Positions 4,087-27,765 of a stretch of 64,000 nucleotides of DNA are shown here, in pieces. A program made the position numbers and the translations under genes. Location: positions 1-64,000 of the forward strand of contig CACKFA010000006.1 of assembly GCA_902599335.1 (NCBI GenBank). Direction: 5' to 3'. Position 1 is the first letter of the stretch. Every line of letters starts with the position of its first letter. This DNA comes from an uncultured Pelagibacteraceae bacterium. Lineage in GTDB: Bacteria; Pseudomonadota; Alphaproteobacteria; Pelagibacterales; Pelagibacteraceae. The notes below the pieces were generated by a model. It was not told the origin of the DNA. It ran no database searches and worked only from the letters and a program-made list of their open reading frames with translations.

Positions 4087-4440
4087 ATGAATTTATACGA
4101 ACATACTATTATAGCTAGGCAGGATGCTTCACCAAGTGAATTAAAGCAATTAACAGAAAAATATTCTAAAATTGTTGAAAAAAATGATGGTGAAGTTGTT
4201 AAAACTGAAAACTGGGGATTACTTAACTTATCTTATTTAATTAAAAAAAATAAGAAAGGAAGTTACATACACTTTAAAATAAAAGGTAAAGGTAATGTTA
4301 TTGATGAATTGGAAAAAAATGAAGCTATAGATAAAAAATTACTGAGATATTTAACAGTTAGAGTAAAAAAATTTGACTTAAAAACAAGCTATTTTGGAAA
4401 AAAAGAAGATAGCGAAAAAAAAGAAAGTGTTAAAAACTAA
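4087..4440 (+). CDS. rpsF: 30S ribosomal protein S6
   Basis: [13 protein letters not shown]...; first gene of rpsF-rpsR-rplI order. Confidence 0.95.
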
Positions 4441-5239: not shown

Positions 5240-6658
5240 ATGGAAAATAATTTAAGTATAGTCAAAGATCAATTTAAAGAGTTGCCAAATAATATTGAGG
5301 CGGAGCAAGCTGTAATAGGTTCTATCCTTGTAAGCAATGATATTTTTGATGAAATAAATACAATAATTTCCAATATTAACTTTTACGATCCAATGCATCA
5401 AAAAATATTTGAGGCAGTTGAAAGTCTTATATACAAAGGAATGTTAGCTAACCCAATTACTTTAAAAAATTATTTTGAAGATGAAAAAGATGATCTAAAT
5501 GTTCCAGAATATTTGGTAAAAATCACAAAGTTTTCTACTTCAGTTAGGCAAGCAATAGAATACTCAAAAATAATTTATGATATGTTTGTTAGAAGAGAAT
5601 TAATAAAAATTTCTGAACAAACTATTGATAGCGCAAAATTAAATGATCTTGATACTAACGGACAGTCTATAATTGAAAGTTCTGAAAGATTATTATTTGA
5701 TTTAGCTGAAAAAGGTTCTTTCAATTCTTCTTTAGTAAAATTTGATGAGGCAATGAAACAAACAATTGAAATGGCTTCAGCTGCTTATAAGAATGAAGAA
5801 GGAATCGTTGGTGTTCCAACTGGTTTAAGAGACCTAGATGATAAGCTCGGTGGTTTACATCAATCAGATTTAATTATTATTGCTGGTCGACCATCAATGG
5901 GTAAAACTTCACTAGCAACAAATATTGCATTTAATGCTGCTCAAAAACTACAAGAGAGTGGTAAGAAATCATCTATAGCTTTCTTTTCACTTGAAATGTC
6001 TTCAGAACAATTGTCTACAAGAATTATATCTGAACAAGCTAGAATTAGTTCTAATGATATTAGAAGAGGAAGAATATCAGATGATCAATTTGATAAATTT
6101 TTAGAAACATCAAAAAATATTTCTGAACTGCCCCTTTATATTGATGAAACTCCAGCAATAAGTATAGCTGCTCTCAGTAATAGAGCGAGGCGTATTAAAA
6201 GGCTTTTTGGCCTTGATATGATAGTAGTTGATTACATCCAATTAATGAGAGGAACTACATTCAATAAAGATGGAAGAGTTCAAGAGATTTCACAAATTAC
6301 TCAAGGGCTTAAAGCAATAGCCAAAGAACTCTCAGTTCCTGTGGTAGCTCTATCGCAGCTTTCTCGACAAGTAGAACAAAGAGATGATCACAAACCACAA
6401 TTGGCAGACTTAAGAGAATCTGGATCTATTGAACAAGATGCCGATGTTGTAATGTTTGTTTATAGAGAAGGATATTATTTGCAAAGAAAAGAACCAAGAG
6501 AAGCAACAGTTGAACATGCTGAATGGCAAGCAAAAATGAATGAAGTTGCACATTTAGCTCAAATTATAATTGGAAAACAAAGACATGGTCCTATTGGTAA
6601 TGTAACTCTTGAATTTGAGGAAAGATTTACAAAATTTAAGGATACTCAATCAAGTTAA
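5240..6658 (+). CDS. dnaB: replicative DNA helicase
   Basis: PNNIEAEQAVIGSIL N-terminus, GRPSMGKTSLA Walker A, VVDYIQLM. Confidence 0.96.
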   Translation: MENNLSIVKDQFKELPNNIEAEQAVIGSILVSNDIFDEINTIISNINFYDPMHQKIFEAVESLIYKGMLANPITLKNYFEDEKDDLNVPEYLVKITKFSTSVRQAIEYSKIIYDMFVRRELIKISEQTIDSAKLNDLDTNGQSIIESSERLLFDLAEKGSFNSSLVKFDEAMKQTIEMASAAYKNEEGIVGVPTGLRDLDDKLGGLHQSDLIIIAGRPSMGKTSLATNIAFNAAQKLQESGKKSSIAFFSLEMSSEQLSTRIISEQARISSNDIRRGRISDDQFDKFLETSKNISELPLYIDETPAISIAALSNRARRIKRLFGLDMIVVDYIQLMRGTTFNKDGRVQEISQITQGLKAIAKELSVPVVALSQLSRQVEQRDDHKPQLADLRESGSIEQDADVVMFVYREGYYLQRKEPREATVEHAEWQAKMNEVAHLAQIIIGKQRHGPIGNVTLEFEERFTKFKDTQSS

Positions 6659-25695: not shown

Positions 25696-25764
25696 GTGAA
25701 TAAAGAAAACTCGCAGAAACTCTGGAAAATTATTCAGGAAGCTGGCGATTATTTGGGGTGCTAG
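25696..25764 (+). pseudogene. truncated 5' copy of the small gene at 27538-27765
   Basis: GTG AAT AAA GAA AAC ... TAT TTG GGG TGC TAG encodes (M)NKENSQKLWKIIQEAGDYLGC*, vs intact MNKENASKLWKMIQEAGDYLVGQL; about 50 of 60 nt identical by eye. Confidence 0.75.
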
Positions 25765-25776
25765 TGGTACACCCGA

Positions 25777-25806
25777 CTTCACACTACCTCACACTACTTC
25801 ACACTA
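25777..25806. repeat. 3 x 10-bp tandem repeat CTTCACACTA / CCTCACACTA / CTTCACACTA
   Basis: Read directly. Confidence 0.9.
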
Positions 25807-25807
25807 G

Positions 25808-25849
25808 TTATGCGGATAATTAAAATTTGATTGAAAATAATTCGCATAA
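25808..25849. repeat. inverted repeat TTATGCG ... CGCATAA (7-bp perfect arms, AT-rich loop)
   Basis: Arms at 25808-25814 and 25843-25849. Confidence 0.7.
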
Positions 25850-25872
25850 AGACTCATCAATTTAAGCAAAAA

Positions 25873-25909
25873 ACTATACCCCAAACTATACCAAGTTGAG
25901 ATAAATCAA
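25873..25909. repeat. left copy of 37-bp imperfect direct repeat ACTATACCCCAAACTATACCAAGTTGAGATAAATCAA
   Basis: 33/37 identical to 27488-27524; contains two ACTATACC words at 12-bp spacing. Confidence 0.9.
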
Positions 25910-25924
25910 CTTAATGTAATATCT

Positions 25925-26377
25925 TTATTCTACTCGTGAATATTCTGATTTAACTCTACGTAAAGGTATGGACGTTTCAACTGAAGAAACACCATCTATT
26001 ACAGTAAGTTTTTTTGTTAAAAAATCTTCAAATTCCTCAACGTCTTTAACCGCAATTCTAATTAAGTAATCCTTAGCACCTGTCATTAACCAACATTCAA
26101 CAACTTCAGGAAAATTTAAAATTTTTTTCTCAAATTTATCAAAATTTTTTGATTGTTGTTTTTCTAAGCTTATAAATATAAATGCAGGAAATTTGTAACC
26201 AAGTGAAGTTTCATCAATATTTATTGAATAATTTTTAATTATATTATTTTCTTCTAATTGGTTTATTCTTCTTGCGGTAGGAGCAATACTTAAATTTATT
26301 TTCTCACTAATATTTTGAAGTGTAGTTTTGCTGTTATTTTTAAGTATTTTTACAATCTTTTTATCAACTTCATCCAT
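25925..26377 (-). CDS. Lrp/AsnC family transcriptional regulator
   Basis: MDEVDKKIVKILKNNSKTTLQNISEKINLSIAPTARRINQLEENNII HTH and C-terminal RAM-like domain. Confidence 0.92.
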   Translation of the reverse strand: MDEVDKKIVKILKNNSKTTLQNISEKINLSIAPTARRINQLEENNIIKNYSINIDETSLGYKFPAFIFISLEKQQSKNFDKFEKKILNFPEVVECWLMTGAKDYLIRIAVKDVEEFEDFLTKKLTVIDGVSSVETSIPLRRVKSEYSRVE

Positions 26378-26494
26378 ATTTTTAATAAATTTTATTAATA
26401 TTTATAAAATATCTTATAAAATTTACTAATATTCAACTATAAATTAGTAATAATAGAGAAAATTTATTTTTAATTTCATGTAATTAATAATTAT

Positions 26495-27463
26495 ATGAAT
26501 AAATCTAAATCATTTGATCCAATCTGGGTTCCAATTATTTCTCAATATCAAAACACAAAAAATTTAGAGCTAGATGAAAAGCTTATTCAAAAACATATCA
26601 ATTGGTTAGACCCACATGTAAAACAATTCTTGGTATGCGGAACTACAGGAGATGGATGGAATTTAACTGATAAATTAATTTTTAATTGGTTAGATATATT
26701 AAATGATAACTCTTTAATCAAAAAAGATAACAAAATATTATTTGGAGCATTTGGAAAAACAACAGAAGATGTTCTAAGACGTGCAGATATCATAGAAAGA
26801 TATATAGATAAAAATGGATCATCTGCTGGTTTTTTTGGATTAACTTTGTGTGCTCCCGTTGACGAAAACATCAAACAAGAAGGAATTATTTCACATTTTA
26901 AGCTTATCATTGAAAATACACATTTACCAATTTCTATCTATCAATTACCTCAAGTAGTAAAATGTAAAATTGAACCTGAAACATTAAAAATATTAAAAGA
27001 TAATTTTCAAGATAGAATTCAATTATTTAAGGATACTAGTGGTGAAGATGATGTTGTGAATTCTAGAATTAATTTTAATGATTTAATATTTTTAAGAGGA
27101 GCAGAAGAAAATTATTTTGATCATTTAAAACCTAATGGGAAATATGATGGATTTTTATTAAGCTCAGCAAATTGTTTTGGTAAAATTTTAAGAGAAATTT
27201 ATAATAATGTTGCAAAGGGTAATTTTAAAGATGCAGAAAAAATGTCTGAGGAACTAAGCGATATAATTAGAATTTCATTCTCAGAAGGTCAAAAACTAGA
27301 TTTTGGAAACCCTTTTTCTAATGTAAATAAAGCATTTGCTCATGTCTTGATTAATAAAGATAATCTTAGTTGCAAAACATGTTTTGACAGAAATATACCT
27401 AATGAATTTTTAAATGATATGTTTCTATTGCTATCTAAATATAACTTAAGAAAATCCTTATAG
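26495..27463 (+). CDS. DapA/dihydrodipicolinate synthase-family aldolase/lyase
   Basis: VCGTTGDGWNLT, ISIYQLPQV, QLFKDTSGED Schiff-base Lys motif, FLRGAEENYFDHLKPNGKYDGFLLSSAN. Confidence 0.85.
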   Translation: MNKSKSFDPIWVPIISQYQNTKNLELDEKLIQKHINWLDPHVKQFLVCGTTGDGWNLTDKLIFNWLDILNDNSLIKKDNKILFGAFGKTTEDVLRRADIIERYIDKNGSSAGFFGLTLCAPVDENIKQEGIISHFKLIIENTHLPISIYQLPQVVKCKIEPETLKILKDNFQDRIQLFKDTSGEDDVVNSRINFNDLIFLRGAEENYFDHLKPNGKYDGFLLSSANCFGKILREIYNNVAKGNFKDAEKMSEELSDIIRISFSEGQKLDFGNPFSNVNKAFAHVLINKDNLSCKTCFDRNIPNEFLNDMFLLLSKYNLRKSL

Positions 27464-27487
27464 GAATTTGTAAAATTTTGTGGGATA

Positions 27488-27524
27488 ACTATACCCAGAA
27501 CTATACCAGATTGAGATAAATCAA
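27488..27524. repeat. right copy of 37-bp imperfect direct repeat ACTATACCCAGAACTATACCAGATTGAGATAAATCAA
   Basis: 33/37 identical to 25873-25909, same orientation. Confidence 0.9.
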
Positions 27525-27537
27525 GGTTTGAAGTAGT

Positions 27538-27765
27538 ATGAATAAAGAAAACGCAAGTAAACTGTGGAAAATGATACAGGAAGCTGGTGATTATTTGGTG
27601 GGGCAATTACCTGACCACCCAAATCACCCAAAAGGAAGAAACCCCTATGCTCATGTTGCTATATGTGTAAAAAGTAAATTCAGTGCAAGCTACAAAGATA
27701 TTCCTGATGAAAAATATAATGATGTTATTAAGTACATTGAATTTTTAAAACAAAATCCAAGTTAA
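27538..27765 (+). CDS. small hypothetical protein (intact copy)
   Basis: 75 aa MNKENASKLWKMIQEAGDYLVGQLPDHPNHPKGRNPYAHVAICVKSKF...; truncated paralog at 25696. Confidence 0.7.
   Translation: MNKENASKLWKMIQEAGDYLVGQLPDHPNHPKGRNPYAHVAICVKSKFSASYKDIPDEKYNDVIKYIEFLKQNPS

Follow-up and report, generated by a model that had tools for sequence, protein, structure and literature searches.

The two-gene module at positions 25,696 to 27,765 of the window, i.e., the whole 64,000-nucleotide stretch of Pelagibacteraceae DNA that we analysed, is probably a non-autonomous, site-specific integrative cassette, which cognate satellite integrases would mobilise in trans and whose type-specific iterons would serve as addresses. 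The element spans ~1.84 kb (~1,842 bp), from a core at 25747 to a core at 27589. SAR11, to which the Pelagibacteraceae belong, are the most abundant bacteria of the ocean, and their genomes are small, with few recognisable mobile elements, yet their variable gene content is large. For the movement of these genes, a cassette that recurs with a defined att site, identifiable cargo and a putative helper integrase offers a concrete and testable candidate route. Movement of a cassette was not directly observed.

Anatomy of the cassette and of its host gene

Both copies of the ATTATTT core fall within codons 18 to 20 of a conserved 75-aa gene. The features of the locus are as follows.

25696-25764, + strand: left att half, a truncated 5' fragment of the host 75-aa gene, GTG...TAG, the TAG lying inside the element
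25738-25869, + strand: conserved cassette left end, model R1 (E 1.6e-34 in its own genome)
25747-25754, + strand: left core GATTATTT, crossover region, where the insert starts approximately; common to the small-gene attB, the satellites and the purK secondary site
25780-25806, + strand: three direct repeats CACACTANNT at 10-bp spacing, conserved in both cassettes and satellites
25808-25849, no strand assigned: inverted repeat TTATGCG...CGCATAA, then AAAGACTCATCAATTTAAGCAA, conserved in cassettes
25873-25909, + strand: left iteron pair ACTATACCC/ACTATACCA with TTGAGATAAATCAA, 126 bp from the core
25925-26377, - strand: cargo, Lrp/AsnC-family regulator (PF01037, E 4e-22)
26495-27463, + strand: cargo, enzyme of the DHDPS/N-acetylneuraminate-lyase superfamily (PF00701, E 3e-20)
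27488-27524, + strand: right iteron pair, of the same type as the left, 101 bp from the core
27538-27765, + strand: host 75-aa gene, intact, with the first ~18-20 codons coming from the cassette
27589-27596, + strand: right core GATTATTT, where the insert ends approximately

The first-pass annotation had described a regulator and an enzyme flanked by 37-bp direct repeats in the same orientation, and these repeats (33 of 37 positions; 89% over 38 nt for 25872-25909 and 27487-27524) are indeed present, as are the two genes, confirmed by their Pfam matches, the truncated small gene ending in TAG and its intact copy. The repeats had also been taken as the boundary of the module, but the edges are the cores within the small gene, and each 37-bp repeat is a pair of 12-bp-spaced iterons internal to an element end. 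The 37-bp repeat occurs at only two places in the window's own 1.27-Mb, 23-contig assembly and is thus not a general intergenic element. A second repeat (25697-25756 and 27539-27598, 85% over 60 nt) corresponds to the small-gene 5' end, present in duplicate.

In the aligned cassettes, the left part runs from the small-gene 5' end through the core GATTATTTGG, the TAG stop and three or four 10-bp-spaced CACACTA repeats to the inverted repeat TTATGCGG...CGCATAA, AAAGACTCATCAATTTAAGCAA and an iteron pair, whose 12-bp-spaced units read ACTnnnnnn with TTGAGATAAATCAA. The right part comprises the cargo, a second iteron pair, a short spacer and a new small-gene 5' end that restores the reading frame. 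We interpret the two cassette ends as the halves of a tyrosine-recombinase attachment site around the ATTATTT core, with the CACACTA repeats on one side and a type-specific iteron pair on either side, each at its fixed distance. Each cassette brings its own version of the small-gene upstream region and first ~20 codons, and the host gene thereby remains intact after insertion. An Rfam search of the locus returned no match and so gives no support for a known structured RNA at the ends, and no relic left end was found leftward of the window cassette where it was sought, around the photolyase gene.

The 75-aa gene itself is conserved across the order: it was found in 44 of 61 relatives (16 of the 19 near-complete ones), and a truncated 5' end of the window type is also found in ~60 relatives. 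Truncated 5' copies ending in TAG likewise occur in some relatives, with three in a row before the intact copy in G024. The protein is predicted to form three helices (pLDDT 90); it has no Pfam or NCBIfam family, no match among phage records and no fold match in the PDB, and carries only a weak antirepressor-like hint. In one locus (L072:7801-7911), a C-terminal fragment of the gene (codons 39-75) lies downstream of the intact copy, which suggests another rearrangement, on the right side.

Recurrence, empty sites and alternative cargo

Strong left ends, defined as matches to the sequence-only model R1 at E<1e-15, were observed in 64 of 399 genomes of the genus, and R1 also matches 27 of 227 genomes of the order; these lie in two genera of the same family, and two of them, G086 and G095, are single-contig genomes. 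Dozens of related genomes show this arrangement again, which puts it far beyond chance. At the locus after a 155-aa gene, ten genomes hold the intact small gene and six hold a small gene split by a cassette. Equivalent ends enclose differing cargoes in ~60 genomes, and cassettes also stand in arrays of up to four with differing cargo, which could arise by repeated insertion at the regenerated core. The first-pass annotation had named empty sites and alternative cargo as what an insertion should leave among relatives, and both are observed; an arrangement carried by all relatives, with a widespread repeat, would have refuted it, and this is not what the 64 of 399 genomes and the two repeat copies in the assembly indicate.

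That annotation had left the choice between a past insertion and a segmental duplication. A replication error that duplicated the small gene, the Lrp and DapA-like genes being captured independently, would account for the direct repeat of the window module and for its second copy of the gene 5' end; it does not account for the same ends around dozens of unrelated cargoes, for empty sites or for a cassette at another locus. On the sequence comparison available, segmental duplication is already contradicted and we give it next to no credence, and insertion, refined here to site-specific insertion, is the part of the earlier proposal that stands.

The other locus is provided by G454 (L142). Here the Lrp/DapA cassette is complete, including its two iteron blocks and an enzyme 99% identical to that of the window, and sits between a purK-like and an SRAP-like gene, both named from their own sequences and not from a family search. 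In G417, the purK site is empty and reads ATTATTTG, the secondary-site form of the core. A third genome, G560 (L134), has a cassette left end at the same purK position and a right end replaced by a left-flank repeat, through either rearrangement or misassembly. At the L142 site (reverse-complement coordinates), attL near 4165 reads ACTATATTTGG and attR near 5965 reads GATTTATTAG; relative to the expected ATTATT overlap, attL is short of one T and attR has one T too many, a complementary slip.

The cargo enzyme of the window is rare, copies at least 92% identical being present in 4 of 399 genomes. Its identification as the housekeeping DapA was rejected (TIGR00674, 64 bits against a cutoff of 206). 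G561:C36 (L218) also has a DHDPS-like enzyme, 92% identical, together with its Lrp regulator; this pair was rejected as the same cassette on account of its different context and the lack of recognisable cassette ends.

Among 86 left ends read, both iteron pairs were readable for 64 cassettes; cassette size ranges from 0.8 to 8.6 kb, with a median of ~2.2 kb. A 227-bp cassette copy without cargo adjoins a tRNA-Ser gene (L167:3902-4143). In the cargo, 133 proteins 90 aa or longer have matches to 116 Pfam families, with restriction-modification components, helicases and hydrolases frequent, and exported proteins and metabolic genes also identifiable. Many cargo proteins start with an exported-protein leader. 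In at least 17 of 149 cargo proteins, for example at L034:13351-14187, L126:564-1484 and L159:4270-6056, this leader is near-identical (MKKLLGIVVLGLLL...), and a fragment of its DNA often lies directly before the right iterons, as if the leader itself were shuffled between cassettes. A profile search of the cargo proteins found no integrase of the satellite family described below, in keeping with the first-pass description of a two-gene cargo without recombinase; the likely recombinase lies on separate satellite-like elements. Other recombinase classes were judged from the 25 commonest Pfam families only, and rare ones are not strictly excluded.

Matched iterons and the candidate helper satellites

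Left and right iterons of one cassette, scored on the 12 variable letters of two iterons, agree at a mean of 0.83 (n=64), compared with a mean of 0.465 for shuffled pairs and a maximum of 0.547 in 10,000 shuffles. The ends match at 0.75 or more in 54 of the 64 cassettes; the other 10 fall short of this value, in some cases because a boundary was lost or an end replaced. Among array neighbours, ten facing ends agree at only 0.33-0.67. Clustering yielded 16 iteron groups; the largest chains several types together. The shuffle is uncorrected for related cassettes counted more than once, and part of the end matching could come from shared descent of both ends and not from function. The left iterons lie 126 or 127 bp from the core in 67 of the 76 ends that could be read, most exceptions being ~10 bp (one helical turn) longer or shorter, and the right iterons stand 100 or 101 bp from the core in 57 of 60. 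Such constant spacing through variable sequence would be a requirement of an intasome with arm sites.

Four ~9-kb satellite-like elements (L057, L068, L178 and L183) carry the same att site beside a tyrosine integrase. Three come from IMG/VR, where membership is itself a prediction, and are closed circles as judged by their terminal overlaps: L057 (9,041 bp, overlap 29 nt), L178 (8,885 bp, 98 nt) and L183 (8,922 bp, 81 nt). The fourth, L068/L184 (8,864 bp), lacks a terminal overlap, has the same gene map as the circles and belongs to the Pelagibacteraceae single-cell assembly AG-447-P19 (CACJSY010000013.1, genome G249). The first viral contig was retrieved with a pattern of the core plus the upstream gene fragment and the second with a wider attP pattern, and an integrase profile search added the third together with the single-cell contig. 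Most viral contigs matching the attP pattern were rejected as unrelated chance matches, only L057 and L178 being real, and the cassette tail AGACTCATCAATTTAAGCAA is absent from the viral contigs.

In all four satellites, the attP consists of right iterons, the 60-bp gene fragment, the core and the CACACTA repeats without interruption, directly followed by an integrase gene of 570-581 aa whose start encodes the left iterons, with spacings of 100/101 and 127 bp as in cassettes. All four satellite iteron types recur in cassettes: the right iterons match those of cassettes at 23 of 24 letters for L057 (L161/L115), at 24 of 24 for L068 (L121/L114) and at 24 of 24 for L178 (L151), and the L183 iterons ACTATATCACAGACTATAGC equal, by inspection, the pair at both ends of the first L120 cassette.

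L178 has PHROG matches to an integrase (phrog_1, E 6e-26), primases, a RusA-like resolvase (E 1.4e-11) and, weakly, a small terminase (E 1.7e-5), and Pfam matches to DUF5906 (PF19263, E 9e-14) and an AEP primase domain. PHROG and Pfam searches recognised no capsid gene in the satellites; no conjugation gene was recognised, and there was no Pfam AlpA match, only weak HTH and excisionase hints. This gene set is phage-satellite-like, and the weak TerS-like match is no more than suggestive of packaging by a helper phage. More distant integrase/primase elements, their integrase 28-32% identical, were seen at L069:4657-11175 and L070:8301-17973, each near a tRNA-Leu(taa) gene; near the L070 element, six small genes in a row (L070:1419-5075) share a near-identical pseudopilin-like leader (FTLIELLVVVAIIGILAAVGVVAYNGYT).

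Aligned with one another, the four integrases are 38-69% identical over columns 40-145 and 66-95% in later blocks, so the N-terminal region is the most divergent part. Lambda-type integrases bind arm sites through their N-terminal region, and divergence there fits a type-specific reading of the iterons. The iterons are probably arm-binding sites of the N-terminal domain of the satellite integrase, an inference made without binding data. The integrase itself had no match among 50,697 phage records, and its profile none among solved structures.

The iterons could instead bind another factor, such as a satellite replication initiator or primase, an excisionase or a regulator, and cassettes could move by homologous recombination between shared ends during natural transformation. 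We hold this to be unlikely. The iterons do resemble replication iterons, the ends offer 60-130 bp of shared sequence, and homologous exchange could account for replaced ends such as that of L034; yet two iteron sets stand at a fixed distance and helical phase round the core in attP and in every cassette, the purK insertion shares the short core alone with its target, and integrase divergence peaks in the N-terminal region. The L034 right end is an observation in itself: L034 and L122 hold the same cargo cassette, but the right iterons of L034 are of a different type, as though that end had been swapped.

Cassettes might also be decayed remnants, i.e., once autonomous satellites that have lost integrase and replication genes and are now immobile like CIMEs, their cargo having arrived by other routes. 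Although the att architecture is that of satellites, satellites are rare in genomes and some ends are decayed or mismatched, almost all cassettes keep both ends, exact spacing and matched iterons, no satellite integrase-family gene is left in them, and the same small cassette stands at two loci. Moreover, cassettes share a conserved left-end segment (TTATGCGG...AATTTAAGCAA) in whose place satellites carry another, equally long sequence instead of the inverted repeat and AAAGACTCATCAATTTAAGCAA, and cassettes are therefore not simple deletion products. We consider decay an improbable origin.

We thus retain mobilisation in trans as the preferred reading, in which the recombinase would most likely come from the ~9-kb integrase/primase satellites with their TerS-like protein, elements that use the same core, gene 5' end and spacing as the cassettes, and each iteron type would be the address for its cognate integrase. 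Integrase relatives were found in only 4 of 297 family genomes and not in the window's own genome, from which we infer that a helper from outside is needed. No genome was found with a cognate satellite and a cassette integrated side by side, and no excised cassette circle was seen. Passage from cell to cell may proceed by satellite co-packaging, transduction or transformation, among which the data do not choose. A broader proposal, which we regard as evenly poised between right and wrong, is an address-coded cassette economy of SAR11, in which both ends of each of dozens of cassettes are the arm-site code of one among many satellite integrases. If so, each kind of satellite would mobilise its own set of host genes in trans, cassettes would hitchhike on satellites and satellites on phages, and a streamlined genome without its own recombinase would have access to integron-like gene exchange. 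From the end code, the satellite that would mobilise a given cassette can be predicted, and this prediction is testable in a heterologous host without SAR11 culture.

Relation to known mobile systems

No description of the SAR11 cassette system was found in the open-access literature, subscription papers and preprints being outside the scope of the search; this is not proof of novelty. CIMEs are cis-mobilizable elements, decayed from ICEs or IMEs (PMC5704250), and SAR11 cassettes resemble them in being att-flanked, integrase-less and arranged in tandem arrays by accretion. The cassettes fit the CIME definition in having attL and attR without integration or transfer genes (as far as the satellite-family integrase is concerned) and depart from it in ancestry, the relatives that share their att site being circular elements with primase and TerS-like genes. 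Unlike CIMEs, their relatives are satellites and not conjugative elements, their size is ~0.8-8.6 kb, their ends are strictly uniform and a type-specific iteron pair is borne at both ends.

The putative helpers L057, L068, L178 and L183 are comparable to the PICMI/PICI phage satellites (PMC10803314) in their ~9-kb size, integrase, DUF5906 primase and TerS-like protein. They possess the integrase and DUF5906-type primase expected of PICMI (phrog_1 and PF19263 in L178) and do not meet the other two expectations, an alpA gene and integration next to fis, their attP holding the 5' end of the 75-aa gene. The cassettes themselves, unlike such satellites, lack integrase, primase and TerS-like genes.

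Tycheposons of Prochlorococcus and others, as far as they are characterised where cited in PMC10872708, are elements of 4-200 kb with a tyrosine recombinase, located at tRNA genes. SAR11 cassettes are likewise integrative cargo elements of streamlined aquatic bacteria, but carry no integrase of the satellite family on the element and have a protein gene as their main target and not a tRNA gene. The likeness to integron cassettes is a functional analogy, arrays of small recombinase-less cargo being served, in the SAR11 case by inference, by a tyrosine recombinase in trans; each SAR11 cassette differs in having a lambda-like split att site plus part of its target gene, and no attC-like RYYYAAC/GTTRRRY pair was found, by eye only, in the cassette left-end consensus.

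The nearest general description is that of the additive flexible genomic islands of marine bacteria, with variable numbers of cassettes at one site (PMC4033161, PMC10872708), including fGI-2 of Methylophilaceae with its repeated fragment of the target gene (PMC10872708). Unlike in these islands, the target of SAR11 cassettes is the 5' end of a protein gene, and for the SAR11 cassettes the att anatomy, the matched iterons and a candidate helper have been identified.
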